A model generated the notes under the pieces. It made no database searches. It was not told where the DNA came from and was given only the letters and a program-made list of their open reading frames with translations. A stretch of DNA of 33,032 nt, from NCBI GenBank assembly GCA_947577075.1, contig CANPTW010000030.1, forward strand, positions 1 through 33,032, given 5' to 3'. A program made the position numbers and the translations under genes. Below are positions 11,066 to 30,859 of this stretch, piece by piece. How positions within the stretch are numbered: the stretch's first letter is position 1; each line of letters begins with the position of its first letter. Origin of the DNA: an uncultured Oscillibacter sp. GTDB taxonomy: Bacteria > Bacillota > Clostridia > Oscillospirales > Oscillospiraceae.

Positions 11066-11110
11066 TTGGTAAGGATGAGGTCGGCGGTTCGAATCCGCCC
11101 AGCAGCTCCA
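11066..11110 (+). repeat. attR: displaced 3' end of the original tRNA-Thr
   Basis: This copy matches tRNA positions 32-76, but its T-stem is GGCGG/CCGCC in place of GGCAG/CTGCC. It has no 5' half, so it is not a second tRNA gene. By the usual logic of tRNA-targeting elements it is the host's former 3' end. Confidence 0.9.
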
Positions 11111-11112
11111 CC

Positions 11113-11150
11113 AAAATCCTTAGAGCCGTAAGGCTTTGAGGATTTTATTT
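11113..11150 (+). terminator. Former tRNA terminator, now right of the element
   Basis: A stem of AAAATCCT (11113-11120) with AGGATTTT (11139-11146) encloses GAGCC/GGCTT pairing and a GTAA loop, then a T-rich run. It starts 3 bp after attR, the same distance as the present terminator from the intact tRNA. Confidence 0.75.
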
Positions 11151-11259: not shown

Positions 11260-11718
11260 ATGGAACTGAAAAATCCCCTGTTGGCTGTGGCCGATATGGA
11301 GCGGGCCTTGGCCTTTTACGAAAACGTTCTGGGCCTTCAAGTGGTTCTGGACTTCGGGGCCAACAAAACCCTGACCGGCGGGCTGTGCCTGCAGACGCTG
11401 GAGAGCTGGCGGGACTTTATCGGAACGGAAACGGTGGCCTTCGGCGGAAACGACGGGGAGATCTATTTTGAGGAGGAGCGGTTTGACGACTTCCTCCGGA
11501 AGCTGGAGACCCTGGACCTCTGCTATGTCCACCCGGTCCGGGAGCACGCCTGGGGCCAGCGGGCGGTCCGGTTCTACGATCCGGACCGGCACATCATTGA
11601 GGTGGGGGAAGCCATGACTGCGGTCTGCCGCCGCTTTCTGGACAGCGGCATGACGCCGGAGCAGGCCGCGGCGCGGATGGACGTCCCCGTGGACTACGTC
11701 CGGGAGTGCGTGAAATGA
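11260..11718 (+). CDS. VOC-family (glyoxalase-like) protein
   Basis: The product has 152 residues. It starts NPLLAVADMERALAFYENVLG, the standard first beta-alpha unit of vicinal oxygen chelate proteins, and has the second unit ending VRFYDPDRHIIEVGEAM with a Glu metal-ligand candidate. A single VOC module would dimerise. The last 30 residues look like a small helical add-on (MTPEQAAARMDVPVDYV). Substrate unknown. ATG 11260 has AGGAG 9 nt upstream; a TTG at 11254 is too close to that site. It is the first host gene after the element and overlaps hemW by 4 bp. Confidence 0.85.
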   Translation: MELKNPLLAVADMERALAFYENVLGLQVVLDFGANKTLTGGLCLQTLESWRDFIGTETVAFGGNDGEIYFEEERFDDFLRKLETLDLCYVHPVREHAWGQRAVRFYDPDRHIIEVGEAMTAVCRRFLDSGMTPEQAAARMDVPVDYVRECVK

Positions 11719-12839
11719 GCCGCCCCCTGGGCCTCTATATTCATGTGCCCTTCTGCAGACAGAAGTGCGTGTACTGTGACTTCTATTCCCTTCCCCGGCG
11801 GGAAGATGAGATGGACGCGTATGTCTCTGCCCTGAGGGCCCAGCTGGCCGGAACGGATTTTTCCGGCTATGAGGCGGATACGGTCTATTTGGGGGGCGGC
11901 ACGCCCAGCTATCTGGGGCCCCGCCGGCTGACCGCCCTGTTGGAGAGCCTCCGGGGGGCCTGTCCCGTCTCGCCGGGGGCGGAGATCACCCTTGAGGCGA
12001 ACCCCGACTCCGCCCATGACCCGGAGGGCCTCGCCGCCCTCCGGCAGGCGGGCTTCAACCGGGTTTCCCTGGGGATGCAGTCCGCCGACGACGGGGAGCT
12101 GCGGGCCCTGGGCCGGGTGCATACCGCGGCCCAGGTGCGGGCCTCCGTAGAGGCGTTGCGGAAGGCAGGGTTTGAGAATCTCTCCCTGGACCTGATCTAC
12201 GGCCTGCCGGGGCAGGAGCTCTCCCGCTGGCGGAAGAACCTCGCCGCCGCCGCGGAGCTGGAGCCGGAGCACCTCTCCTGTTACGGGCTCAAGGCGGAGG
12301 AGGGCACGCCCCTTTATGCCCTCCGGGACACGCTGCCGGGGGACGAGGTCCAGGCGGACATGTATCTGGAGACGGTGGACTTTCTGGAGTCCCGGGGCTA
12401 CCGTCAGTACGAGATTTCCAACTTTGCGAAGCCCGGCCGGGAGTCCCGGCACAACCTGAAATATTGGACGCTGGCGGAATACGCCGGATTCGGCCCCGGG
12501 GCCCACTCCGATTTTCGGGGGACCCGTTATGCCTGGGCCCGGGACCTGGCGTCCTTTCTCCGGGGCGAGGCGGAGCGTTCCGAATTTCAGGTCATGACCG
12601 CCCGGGAGCGGGAGGCGGAATGGCTGATGCTGGCCCTCCGGACTGTCCGGGGACTGGACCCGGGGGAGTACGCGGAGCGCTTCGGCGCTTCCTTTCAGGA
12701 CTTCCTGCCCTTTCTGCGGCGCTGCGAGGCGGCGGGATACGCCCTCCGGACCGGAGAGCGCTGGCGGCTGACCCCCCGGGGGTTCCTGGTGTCCAATCCG
12801 ATCATCGGGGAGCTGCTTTCCGTCCGGGACGGGATATAA
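11715..12839 (+). CDS. hemW: Radical SAM heme chaperone HemW
   Basis: The product has about 374 residues. The radical SAM motif is in HVPFCRQKCVYCDF (CX3CX2C) near residue 20. It is followed by TVYLGGGTPSYL, LEANPDS, RVSLGMQS and DLIYGLPGQ, all hallmarks of the HemW/HemN-like group, and then the HemW-type carboxyl domain. The extra early cysteine typical of true coproporphyrinogen dehydrogenase is absent, which favours the heme-trafficking HemW. ATG 11715 overlaps the VOC stop (ATGA), suggesting translational coupling; a GTG at 11706 is a possible alternative start. Confidence 0.93.
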   Translation: MSRPLGLYIHVPFCRQKCVYCDFYSLPRREDEMDAYVSALRAQLAGTDFSGYEADTVYLGGGTPSYLGPRRLTALLESLRGACPVSPGAEITLEANPDSAHDPEGLAALRQAGFNRVSLGMQSADDGELRALGRVHTAAQVRASVEALRKAGFENLSLDLIYGLPGQELSRWRKNLAAAAELEPEHLSCYGLKAEEGTPLYALRDTLPGDEVQADMYLETVDFLESRGYRQYEISNFAKPGRESRHNLKYWTLAEYAGFGPGAHSDFRGTRYAWARDLASFLRGEAERSEFQVMTAREREAEWLMLALRTVRGLDPGEYAERFGASFQDFLPFLRRCEAAGYALRTGERWRLTPRGFLVSNPIIGELLSVRDGI

Positions 12840-13047
12840 GGGGCCTGGAGGGCGCCTGCAAGCACCCAAAAACACGGTCTTGGGGCCCAAGGGGCATGAG
12901 CTCCGCCGGCGGCAAGGCCGCTGGCGGACAGCCGGTCCCGCCGCGTCTGGCGAAGCAATCCGTCCCAATCCAGCCCCCCTGGATTATAAAGGCTTCCTTC
13001 AGGGTTGCGCCTGCGGCGGTATCCGGCCATATGAATATGAACTGGAA
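12840..13047. other. Gene-free stretch between hemW and the 208-bp repeat
   Basis: The 483-bp gap between the convergent hemW and aroK splits into this part and the repeat at 13048-13255. I see no gene here. There is a hairpin AATCCAG/CTGGATT around C-rich bases (12967-12985) without a T-run, and a short CTTGGGGCCCAAG palindrome near 12875. Neither has an assigned role. Confidence 0.5.
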
Positions 13048-13255
13048 GGCGCCCGCGTAAGCGGGCGTCTCAGACTGTCAAAAAAGGTGAAGACTACTTC
13101 AACGGGAAGGAAGGGTGTGCGCGGGAAACCCAGGAAGGGTTTCCTGCGCCATTCAAATCATAAGTTTTCAGAACTTCTTACGGGTTCTGAAAACTTGCTC
13201 AGGCTGGCAAAAAATTCTTTTTTGACAGCCAGAGACGCCCGCTTACGCGGGCGCC
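13048..13255. repeat. Hairpin-rich 208-bp dispersed repeat, copy 1
   Basis: The ends are 39-bp inverted repeats with two mismatches (13048-13086 and 13217-13255). The outer 23 bp of each also fold on themselves (CGCCCGC/GCGGGCG). Inside are a 13-bp hairpin around GGAAACCC/GGGTTTCC (about 13120-13150), a hairpin AAGTTTTCAGAAC/GTTCTGAAAACTT (about 13162-13196) and a third from CTCAGGCTGGC (13198) into the right end. A 56-nt core (13098-13153) is identical to 30656-30711. No target duplication or ORF was seen. Confidence 0.85.
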
Positions 13256-13322
13256 TCTGCTTTTCAGGCGCTCCATGCCGGGAGTGTGAGCGGGTGCGGC
13301 CCGCCAGGGGCCCGGCTGTGGC

Positions 13323-13835
13323 TTAAACCACGCCGGCCTCCCGCAGCTGGGCGAGAATGTTCCGGATCGTCTCCCCTACGCCCTGCTCGTCGGGGCAGTC
13401 GACAATCAGATCGGCGTAAGCCTCATAGAGGGGCGAGCGGAACGCCAGCACGTCCGCCAGGGTCTGGCCGTCCTCCATGGCAATTCCGCGGTTGGAGAGA
13501 TTTTGGATGCGGCGCTGGAGCTCCTCCAGAGGGACCCGGAGATAGACCAGCGTTCCCAGGCTCTTCAGGTGGAGGGCGGCCCGCTCCCGGCAGACGGCGC
13601 TGCCCCCGGGGGCAATGATATGGCCCCGGCAGTCGAGGGAGCGCACGGCGGCCTCCTCCGCGTCCAAAAAGGCGGCGGTTCCCCGGCTGTCCAGAATCTC
13701 CTGCAGCAGCGCCCCCTCCCGCTGCTGAATGAGCAGGTCCACGTCCAGGAACTGATACCCAAGAGATTTGGCCAGCAGGACGCCCAGGGTGCTCTTGCCG
13801 CTGCCCGGCATTCCGATCAAAACGATGTTTTTCAA
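13323..13835 (-). CDS. aroK: Shikimate kinase
   Basis: The product has 170 residues, a normal length for AroK. It phosphorylates shikimate with ATP in chorismate synthesis. Motifs are the P-loop GMPGSGKST (residues 8-16), the shikimate-binding DVD (31-33), a Walker B-like stretch with IIAPGGSAV (PGGS at 76-79), the substrate-binding RGTAAFLDAEE region in the place of RGExxFR, and a lid with Arg in LSNRGIA. The gene stands alone and convergent with hemW, with its own promoter at 13865-13893. Confidence 0.93.
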   Translation of the reverse strand: MKNIVLIGMPGSGKSTLGVLLAKSLGYQFLDVDLLIQQREGALLQEILDSRGTAAFLDAEEAAVRSLDCRGHIIAPGGSAVCRERAALHLKSLGTLVYLRVPLEELQRRIQNLSNRGIAMEDGQTLADVLAFRSPLYEAYADLIVDCPDEQGVGETIRNILAQLREAGVV

Positions 13836-19480: not shown

Positions 19481-19617
19481 GTCCTCCGCAGGCAGCTGCG
19501 GAGCCGGTCTCGCGCAATGAAGCTCTGCGAACCATGTCAGGCGGGGAACCGAGCAGCATTAAGCGGAATGTTTCATGTGCCGCGAGGCAACCGGCTCCGC
19601 AGCTGCCTGCGGAGGAC
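19481..19617 (+). ncRNA. ffs: Signal recognition particle RNA (small bacterial type)
   Basis: A perfect 27-bp terminal helix (19481-19507 with 19591-19617) closes a central domain. That domain has the conserved helix 8 pattern GAACCATGTCAGGCGGGGAACC followed by GAGCAGCATTAAG, where Ffh binds around a GGAA-type tetraloop. It recruits nascent membrane and secreted proteins to SecYEG with Ffh and FtsY. Its place directly before dnaX is the Firmicute arrangement. The long GC-rich terminal helix is unusually strong, and the transcript ends may extend a few bases. Confidence 0.92.
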
Positions 19618-28599: not shown

Positions 28600-30597
28600 A
28601 TGCTGAAAAAAGCGCTCTGCCTGCTGCTGGCCCTGGCCCTTGTCTCCGGCCCGGCGGCGGCTGTGAAATGGGAATACCCCGCCTCCGCCCATCCGGAGAC
28701 GGACTACGCCGATATGCTTCCCGTCACCGGCTTTGACGAGACGGCCCTGCTGGCCGCCCTGAAGGAGCTGGAGAACGTCTGCTCCCGCCACAGCCGGGAC
28801 CGGGACGACAAGCAGACCCGCCGCCGGGTCCAGGCCCTCTATGAGCAGATTCTGGAGGAGATGGACCTCCTGTCCACCAAGGCGAATCTCAGCTCCATTC
28901 AATATGACGCCAGCGGCGGGGCCCCGGAGGCGTCGGCGCTGTATCTGGAGCTCTCCGCCCAGCAGACCCGGCTGACCGACCGCTGCTATCAGGCGCTGTC
29001 CGCCATGGCGGCCTCGCCCTACGCGGATCTGCTGGACGAGGACGCGGGGGAGGGGGCGGCCCGGAGCCTTCTGGGCTACCGGGGCCTGACGGAGGAGGAG
29101 GCCGCCCTCTACGAGGAGGAGGACCGGCTGATTCAGGACTACGACCGGATCATTGCCCAGGGCGTTCCGGTTCAGGCCCTGGGGCGGGTCTGGACGGCGG
29201 AGGAGCTGGAGGACGCCGGGGTGGACGCGGAAACCTATGAGGCCGTCAGCGAGGCGCTGATTGCCGGGCGGTACCAGGCCGCCGGGGAGCTCTATCTCCG
29301 GCTGGTCCGGCTGCGGACGGACCAGGCCCAACGGGCCGGGTACGACGATTACGCCGCCTATGCCTACGAGACCCTTTACACCCGGGATTACACGCTGGAG
29401 GACGCAGCGGCCCTTCGAGAGGCGGCGAAGCGGGAGATTCTCCCCCTCCAGCTCCGGCTGCTGGAGGAGTCCGGCGACCGGGAGCTCCGGGCCCTCAGCG
29501 TGCGGAGCCGCCTGAACGGGGAGGAGGTCCTGGACGCGGTCCGGCCCTTCATCCGGGACTTCGACCGGGAGATGGGGAAGACCTTTGACTTCATGCGGGC
29601 CCATGGGCTCTATGACATCGAATACGGCGAGGCGAAGCTGGCCACCGGATACACCGTGGCCCTGCCCGCCTATGGCAGCGCCTTTATTTTCAACAGCCCC
29701 TATGGGGACTATCAGGACCTCAGCGACCTGGTCCACGAGTTCGGCCACTTCAACGAGACGTTTCACTGCACCCAGCACGACCTCTGGGCGGACTTCAACA
29801 TCGACGTGGGGGAGATCGACTCCCAGGCCCTGGAGCTGATGTTCACGGAAGAGGCCGGAGAGCTCTTCGGGGAGCCCTATGGGGAGGTCTACCGGGACGC
29901 GATCCTCTATAACATTCTGGACTCCATCCTGGACGGCTGCCTCTATGACGAGTTTCAGGCGGCGGCCTATCAGGACCCGGGGATGACGGTGGAGGAGCTG
30001 GACCGGCTCTTCCTGCGGCTATCCGAGGAGTACGGCTATTCCTACGCCTCCGGCACGGAGACGGACCCCACCTGGGTGGAGAACGCCCACAACTTCCAAA
30101 ATCCCCTGTACTTCATCAGCTACGCCACCTCCGCCCTCTCGGCCCTGGACCTGTGGTTCCTCTACCTGGACCGGCCCCGGGAGGCCAAGGAGGTCTATCT
30201 GGAGCTCTCGGCCCTGTCCCTCTCCCTGCCCTACCGGGCGGCGGTGGAGGAGGTGGGCCTCCGGGACATCTTCGACCGGGAAACCGTCCCCGCCCTGGCG
30301 GAAACGCTGGAGGGCTATCTGGACGGGAAACCCGTGTCCCGAAGCGGGGGCGGGCGTCCCACGGCCCTCCTGGCCATGGAAGGTTTCGCGTTGGTCTATA
30401 TTGCACTCTGCGTCCTGCTGATATTCTTCCTTACCCGCTTCCTCTCCCGGAATCGGGCCTGGAGCAGCCGGCCCCGCCGAGCCGGGCGGAAGGACAGGGA
30501 CCCGCCCTCCCGGCTCTCCCGTCAGGCCCCGGGGACCCGCCGAACCGGGGAGGACCCCTGGTCCGCGCAGGACAAAAAGCCCCCCTGGGAGCTGTGA
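28600..30597 (+). CDS. M3-like zinc oligoendopeptidase, exported and membrane-anchored
   Basis: The product has 665 residues. A signal peptide (residues 1-21) is followed by a long helical domain with the M3/PepF layout. The zinc motif HEFGHFNE (H379, E380, H383) is followed about 25 residues later by GEIDSQALELMF, with a candidate third ligand Glu405 or Glu412. A single span near residues 592-614 precedes a 46-residue Arg/Pro-rich tail. Most M3 peptidases are cytosolic, so a secreted, tail-anchored form is less common. It probably degrades peptides outside the membrane. GGGAGG precedes ATG 28600. It closes the apbE operon and is followed by the second 208-bp repeat. Confidence 0.85.
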   Translation: MLKKALCLLLALALVSGPAAAVKWEYPASAHPETDYADMLPVTGFDETALLAALKELENVCSRHSRDRDDKQTRRRVQALYEQILEEMDLLSTKANLSSIQYDASGGAPEASALYLELSAQQTRLTDRCYQALSAMAASPYADLLDEDAGEGAARSLLGYRGLTEEEAALYEEEDRLIQDYDRIIAQGVPVQALGRVWTAEELEDAGVDAETYEAVSEALIAGRYQAAGELYLRLVRLRTDQAQRAGYDDYAAYAYETLYTRDYTLEDAAALREAAKREILPLQLRLLEESGDRELRALSVRSRLNGEEVLDAVRPFIRDFDREMGKTFDFMRAHGLYDIEYGEAKLATGYTVALPAYGSAFIFNSPYGDYQDLSDLVHEFGHFNETFHCTQHDLWADFNIDVGEIDSQALELMFTEEAGELFGEPYGEVYRDAILYNILDSILDGCLYDEFQAAAYQDPGMTVEELDRLFLRLSEEYGYSYASGTETDPTWVENAHNFQNPLYFISYATSALSALDLWFLYLDRPREAKEVYLELSALSLSLPYRAAVEEVGLRDIFDRETVPALAETLEGYLDGKPVSRSGGGRPTALLAMEGFALVYIALCVLLIFFLTRFLSRNRAWSSRPRRAGRKDRDPPSRLSRQAPGTRRTGEDPWSAQDKKPPWEL

Positions 30598-30604
30598 GCC
30601 CAAA

Positions 30605-30813
30605 GGACCGCCTGAAAAGGCGGTCCTCAGCTTGTCGAAAAACGCATAAAACCGATTCAACGGGAAGGAAGGGTGTGCGCGGGAAACCCAGGAAGGGTTT
30701 CCTGCGCCATTTAAATCCCAAGTTTTCAGAACTTTTTTGAAGTTCTGAAAACTTGCTCAGGCTGGCGAAAAATACGTTTTCGCCAGCCTGAGGGCCGCCT
30801 GAAAAGGCGGTCC
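30605..30813. repeat. Hairpin-rich 209-bp dispersed repeat, copy 2
   Basis: It has the same layout as 13048-13255. The end hairpins here are GGACCGCCT/AGGCGGTCC (30605-30626) and a near-identical one at 30792-30813. The 56-nt core 30656-30711 is identical to copy 1. The hairpin GTTTTCAGAACTT/AAGTTCTGAAAAC and a perfect CTCAGGCTGGCGAAAA stem-loop (about 30757-30792) follow. The right end hairpin runs into TTTTTT and so works as an intrinsic terminator for the peptidase gene. It starts 8 bp after that gene's stop. Confidence 0.85.
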
Positions 30814-30859
30814 TTTTTTGAAGAATTTTTCCGGGCTGCGCCGTATTGTTATTTGGGGC

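Follow-up and report, generated by a model that had tools for sequence, protein, structure and literature searches.

Why should two copies of one short repeat be enclosed by outer hairpins that are unlike between the copies but alike within each of them? The question is raised by a stretch of 33,032 nucleotides from an uncultured Oscillibacter sp. (GenBank assembly GCA_947577075.1, contig CANPTW010000030.1, positions 1 to 33,032), called the window here. An initial annotation, made from the letters alone, had described an identical 56-nt core common to both copies together with this pattern of ends. Both observations proved correct, i.e. positions 13098–13153 equal 30656–30711, and in both window copies the outer hairpins correspond within the copy and not between copies.

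Architecture of the two window copies

The window holds two copies of a non-coding element of about 162 bp with CAGNNTGTCRAAAA ends, a length insufficient for a transposase gene. The features are arranged as follows.

11706–12839 (+), gene on the left of copy 1; domains Radical_SAM and HemN_C
13047–13256, MITE copy 1 including its outer hairpins
13047–13070 (+), left target hairpin of copy 1; −20.5 kcal/mol, z −5.18; exact reverse complement of 13233–13256
13071–13085 (+), left terminal repeat of copy 1, CAGACTGTCAAAAAA
13098–13153 (+), 56-nt core of copy 1, identical to 30656–30711 of copy 2
13120–13148 (+), internal hairpin 1 of copy 1; its stem has double compensatory changes across the MITE family
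13162–13196 (+), internal hairpin 2 of copy 1; −16.7 kcal/mol, z −6.70; folds alone
13200–13232 (+), right end of copy 1; a palindrome of two terminal repeats head-to-head
13233–13256 (+), right target hairpin of copy 1; orientation reversed relative to the left hairpin
13323–13835 (−), convergent gene on the right of copy 1; shikimate kinase domain
28600–30597 (+), open frame before copy 2, with 6 nt between its stop and the left hairpin of that copy
30604–30814, MITE copy 2 including its outer hairpins
30604–30627 (+), left target hairpin of copy 2, read as the first copy of the target duplication; single in orthologous empty sites
30628–30790 (+), element of copy 2 between the hairpins, 163 bp
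30791–30814 (+), right target hairpin of copy 2, read as the second copy of the target duplication; a T-tract follows directly

Copy 1 constitutes a 40-nt inverted repeat with 95% complementarity, and its outer hairpins are an exact inverted pair (0 edits when compared inverted versus 4 when compared direct). The outer hairpins of copy 2, on the other hand, are direct repeats with one mismatch in 24 positions and with the orientation of the loop kept. All four hairpins fold below shuffled sequences (z −3.27 to −5.93); the energy of the right hairpin of copy 1 was reached by 2 of 200 shuffles, and that of the other three by none. The right end of the MITE (e.g. 13200–13232) is doubled, so that each element has three end-like sequences. 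A Pfam search at 1e-5 with the frame 28600–30597 gave no match. Elsewhere in the window, 54 nt at 11066–11119 are 91% identical to 36–89, which overlaps the tRNA-Thr at 5–80, the sole tRNA reported by ARAGORN; Rfam places a bacterial small SRP RNA at 19501–19600.

Copies in the genome and the genus

A 131-bp core query had 46 BLAST matches in the genome to which the window belongs (2.79 Mb in 94 contigs, 83% complete), a number that includes split pieces and self-hits of palindromes. The end motif CAGNNTGNCRAAAA occurs 86 times in this genome, IS ends counted, as against no occurrence of the reversed control. When 60 genomes were searched, this one included, MITE matches were obtained in 21, all of which fall among the 37 of the same genus; the 23 genomes from other genera of the order gave no MITE match. 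In the other genomes of the genus, most of the 28 listed loci follow the same plan, that is, a hairpin, the element of about 162 bp and the same hairpin again. The search with the core and the comparison of end hairpins that the initial annotation had recommended therefore returned site-specific, matched hairpins in most copies.

An alignment of 41 MITE copies shows double compensatory changes (e.g. GC to AU; counted per sequence and not per event) in internal hairpin 1 and in the palindrome of the right end. Internal hairpin 2 is absent from the consensus structure of this alignment. An Rfam search of the MITE at relaxed threshold returned only matches far below the gathering scores.

Some copies depart from the common form. 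The cores of L009, L010, L012, L064 and L079, which come from more than one genome, have about 60 bp extra in internal hairpin 1. In L012 (G000:C11 ~49600–49850) one MITE has apparently inserted at an internal hairpin of another, and G000:C22 ~29680–30010 (L013/L014) holds a tandem hairpin-element-hairpin-element-hairpin array in which nearly the same hairpin stands three times. Two further repeats, also multi-copy and matched many times in related genomes, were noticed at G000:C11:54599–54790 (L138:10200–10391) and G000:C13 ~47281–47548 (L139:782–1049).

Left and right hairpins correspond site by site

When a match is defined as a best local-alignment score of at least 14, 45 of the 57 parsed MITE rows match left to right, and 29 of these 45 are from the window's own genome. 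In a control that paired left and right hairpins from different loci, 13 of 3180 pairs reached 14 (median 7, 99th percentile 12). The highest cross-locus score, 32.5, belongs to L053 (G015:C10) and L024 (G000:C15). On inspection, both loci proved to be one gene end as it occurs in two species, and each species has an insertion of its own there; the core types differ and the orientations are opposite. One terminator was thus hit twice, in independent insertions.

Among the 12 rows that score below 14, inspection put three down to chance hits of the core and took one for the inner member of a nested pair, whereas the other 8 are real MITE copies, several of them without one hairpin. The initial annotation had named two observations that would speak against its description, unmatched ends in other copies and one fixed end sequence in all copies. 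The first is true of the minority of 8 real copies and not of most rows; the second does not hold, since the outer hairpins differ between copies.

Empty sites retain a single hairpin

We examined 34 orthologous stretches from relatives, which cover 7 insertions. In 19 of them, at 6 of the 7 insertions, the two flanks and one hairpin are present without the element: copy 2 (4 of 8 stretches), L002 (5 of 5), L005 (4 of 5), L021 (2 of 4), L027 (2 of 4) and L007 (2 of 4, with a weak right flank). For L018, 0 of 4 stretches were informative. The 15 stretches without a clean single hairpin are diverged, contain other sequence or cannot be aligned on one side. At nine empty places the left and right flanks, as matched by BLAST, share 22–28 bp, namely for copy 2 in G060 and G005, for L002 in G015, for L005 in G005, G033, G015 and G060, and for L021 in G015 and G005; for copy 2 in G015 and G033 the overlap is 9–10 bp.

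The clearest case is L005. Four relatives have the flank gttgcaag followed by one hairpin and a T-tract, the hairpin in L227 being AGGGACGGGAAAATTCCCGTCCCT. In the window's genome the relatives' hairpin is found to the left of the element, and to the right stands a second copy that carries two changes. Therefore, the hairpin is older than the element and was duplicated on insertion. Copy 1 offered no usable empty site, as among the matches listed the left-hand gene is conserved in relatives but the right side appears there in short pieces only; for L006, the right flank was found in relatives and the left flank was not.

From the empty-site comparisons it becomes clear that insertion of the MITE goes along with a target-site duplication. 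Empty sites with a single terminator hairpin, which the initial annotation had advised looking for, do exist. Its remark that no target duplication was seen was mistaken, as the outer hairpins themselves are the duplication.

IS1182-type elements as candidate partner

Matches to the IS1182-type protein of the window's own genome were found in 11 of 41 genomes of the genus, fragments counted. NCBIfam model NF033551 (IS1182) is the best model for all four transposase proteins (4/4), which carry DUF772 and/or DDE_Tnp_1_6. L112 alone lies above the cut-off of this model (340.9 vs 270), and it has no MITE-like ends among the IS loci compared; two contig-end fragments score 189.4 and 99.8, below 270. 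An intact partner transposase was not found in the own genome, where the best frame (344 aa) reaches 222.1 bits against the cut-off of 270 and may be degenerate.

At six loci (L109, L115, L119, L120, L123 and L128) the transposase match starts some 134 bp inward of an IS end (CAGGCTGTCGAAAA-type, e.g. CAGGCTGTCGAAAAAGTC), and a hairpin adjoins that end. MITE right ends agree with IS ends of the genus in the first 14 bases (identical, L006–L008) or in 16 of 18 (L057), and the sharing of sequence between MITE and IS is limited to these outermost 14–18 bp. The repeat is short, lacks a transposase gene and has terminal repeats in common with an autonomous element, which is the make-up of a MITE of an IS1182-type element. 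Judged from these ends and proteins, the mobilising family is likely IS1182.

On inspection of L115, the IS sits at the foot of an internal hairpin of a MITE copy. Searching the own genome for DUF772 pointed to IS copies; only one of them, L033 on C10, has both ends, and its hairpins do not match. On the right, the hairpin resembles one at an IS end on C15; on the left, it is the reverse complement of one at an IS end on C13. The unmatched flanks of IS elements may accordingly be due to recombination between IS copies, a reading that is drawn from this one case.

Hairpin duplication around IS1182-type elements elsewhere

A scan of named genomes yielded 567 IS1182-type loci, of which the best 80 were kept; by title these are mostly from Bacillota, with one Chloroflexota MAG. 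With IS ends placed by motif only, both terminal repeats and flanks were available at 45 of the 80 loci, and the remaining 35, many of them cut by contig ends, were without. The flanks of 32 of the 45 elements match by score, with values of at least 19.5 compared to a maximum of 12.5 among 1980 cross-pairs, and those of 13 do not.

In 31 of the 45, an exact direct repeat corresponds to the whole hairpin (20–39 bp, median 26), and all 31 repeats have different sequences. When axes up to 4 bp off were tried, the dyad axis came to lie at the centre of the repeat in 30 of the 31 and half a base off in the other. The dyad scores average 9.2 in the repeats and −0.03 in 620 random stretches, whose 99th percentile is 5.0, so that the lowest repeat score (4) falls inside the random range. 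Among the 14 elements without an exact repeat, L158 is a near match with 2 mismatches in either orientation, and L209 looks misparsed. The left hairpin ends 0–3 nt from the element in the 32 matched elements, and directly at it (0 nt) in 22. In the 8 nt that follow the right repeat T accounts for 52% (background 25%), and ahead of the left repeat A accounts for 61%, as is expected for terminators.

The ends of the matched IS elements lie about 1.5 kb apart, and 31 of the 32 have exact direct repeats, L158 being equal both ways. An "inverted" label was given to five elements by plain score and to six in the anchored comparison. For five of them, which have exact direct repeats, it was rejected as arising because the palindrome extends past the repeat; L158 fits either orientation.

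These elements, like the hairpin-targeting branch of IS1182, insert at hairpins of the terminator type. Removal of the target hairpin as by IS1272 is not what is found here, as an exact hairpin stands on both sides in 31 of 45 elements and the empty sites hold one. Of the causes considered in the initial annotation, the first, a terminator hairpin that becomes duplicated on insertion, is thus supported both by the empty sites and by the same pattern around transposase-bearing IS1182-type elements.

Proposed mechanism of insertion

Taking the comparisons together, we propose with a probability of roughly 0.9 that the feature is a non-autonomous MITE which would be moved in trans by an IS1182-family DDE transposase, with duplication of the target hairpin. 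Such a transposase would recognise the CAGNNTGTCRAAAA ends of the MITE and act in trans on the element of about 162 bp. Its target would be a stem-loop, in most cases an intrinsic terminator, presumably in the form of an extruded cruciform or a single-stranded hairpin. The two ends of the element would then be joined at the two 5′ feet of the stem, one per strand, and gap repair would leave the element with a complete hairpin on either side. If the ends join the 5′ feet and the gaps are filled, the expected result is a repeat that varies in length and is centred on a dyad.

According to this model, the outer hairpins would not be part of the element but a target-site duplication with a length set by the hairpin. 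Most copies would have a matched pair because insertion beside a terminator hairpin copies the hairpin to each side. After insertion, the T-tract would stay with the right hairpin and the A-tract with the left one; thereby, both neighbouring genes could keep a terminator. Copy 1 stands between convergent genes (Radical_SAM/HemN_C and shikimate kinase).

Reversed hairpins and other explanations

In an anchored comparison of 42 MITE rows, from which L012, one L013 and L075 were left out as matched rows with no scored hairpin, 32 pairs are closer as direct repeats and 10 as inverted ones. Inspection of these 10 showed seven clear reversals (L001, L006, L009, L020, L021, L027 and L077), two ambiguous cases (L024 and L070) and one direct pair (L022). 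Window copy 1 is one of the seven MITE copies with one hairpin reversed, an outcome that plain target duplication does not yield. One alternative is a foldback element, whose hairpins would be its own and would be held alike through gene conversion or template switching between the two ends. Of the 45 matched MITE rows 7 are reversed, and there is no clear reversal among the 32 matched IS elements, as this idea would have it (Fisher p = 0.037, in a test confounded by the different ages of the MITE and IS sets), and in comparison with empty sites in two relatives each, the hairpin that appears reversed is the right one in L021 and the left one in L027. However, conversion between inverted arms cannot make the 32 direct pairs, and single hairpins are present already at the empty sites, so that as a general account this is very unlikely. 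What survives is conversion or template switching as the origin of the reversed minority. The reversal of one hairpin is probably a later change than the insertion, and a switch between the MITE ends is a plausible source, because these are just ~160 bp apart. Gene conversion between ends, the second cause put forward in the initial annotation, is accordingly retained as a plausible secondary process for the seven reversed cases, copy 1 included, and abandoned as the main one.

An even less probable route dispenses with the transposase: a cassette with one hairpin would recombine with a matching hairpin, or copies would arise by unequal exchange. The tandem array on C22 has the appearance that such exchanges would give. 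Yet near-identical elements (L004–L008 and L011) reside at unrelated hairpins, which recombination between matching hairpins does not give, and transposase-bearing elements obey the same rule.

Least probable of all, and not needed, is the third cause suggested initially, hairpins of independent origin maintained by selection for end pairing or termination: the hairpins are terminator-like, with a T-tract, and compensatory changes are seen in internal hairpin 1 and in the palindrome at the right end, but many pairs are identical in direct orientation with the loop included, features that selection for pairing would not preserve, and 31 repeats around IS elements are letter-perfect.

Relation to known systems

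Returning to hairpin duplication by an IS1182-type transposase, we compared it with other short or terminator-associated elements. REP sequences and REPINs are likewise short, intergenic and palindromic, but their palindrome is a conserved family sequence in paired inverted arrangement, whereas the outer hairpins here are unique to their sites. A REPIN was rejected, because the outer hairpins vary from copy to copy and, of the 42 anchored pairs, 32 fit better as direct repeats. Group IIC introns also land at terminators; they are, however, RNA-based and have neither terminal inverted repeats nor hairpin duplication. A group II intron was ruled out, since Rfam at gathering threshold gave no intron RNA match in the window. 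IS tables list direct repeats of widely varying length for IS1182, and curators may have seen such repeats already.

In the open-licence literature searched, we recognised no report of regular whole-hairpin duplication by the IS1182 family. Hairpin targeting by this family is in print in two studies. IS1272/TnSha1 shares with the elements described here the IS1182 transposase family, stem-loop targets and the lack of a primary-sequence consensus (PMC4923244, PMC5678879). According to Furi et al. 2016 (PMC4923244), it inserts at hairpins, five of them confirmed terminators, with deletion and no duplication, and Wan et al. 2017 (PMC5678879) describe replacement of the stem-loop by IS1272. There the hairpin is lost in whole or in part, without target duplication, whereas the whole hairpin is duplicated here; duplication of the whole stem-loop is drawn by Wan et al. 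as hypothetical pathway b of their model. IS1182-family MITEs, too, have already been described, in Methanosarcina acetivorans (PMC3852290). ISPse1 (PMC3281130) and the ISMac2-assigned MITEs (PMC3852290) share the IS1182 family name, but their duplications appear to be given as 4 or 0 bp, as opposed to whole hairpins of 20–39 bp here. A term search of a recent review of prokaryotic MITEs (PMC10969869) gave no mention of IS1182.

The aspect that looks new is whole-hairpin duplication as a regular outcome, a variant on known IS1182 hairpin targeting. The initial statement that no named family has this plan thus needs to be divided: the transposase family has a name, IS1182, but its published hairpin-targeting member IS1272 removes the hairpin and does not duplicate it.

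Implications for the IS1182 family

We consider it fairly probable that a large branch of IS1182 consists of structure-guided DDE transposases, which would read an extruded hairpin or cruciform in place of a sequence, cut at its two feet and leave a duplication whose length (20–39 bp) depends on the hairpin instead of a fixed stagger. DDE transposases normally give a target duplication of nearly fixed length; that the length here follows the secondary structure of the target points to recognition of a folded target. The length rule is simple and testable, and the stem-loop replacement by IS1272 would become one of two outcomes within one family. If the model is true, the terminator is duplicated and not destroyed, so that the terminator of the host gene would still work, which would explain the accumulation of the elements and their MITEs. 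Duplicated terminators would then be a low-harm niche that a MITE family exploits across one bacterial genus.
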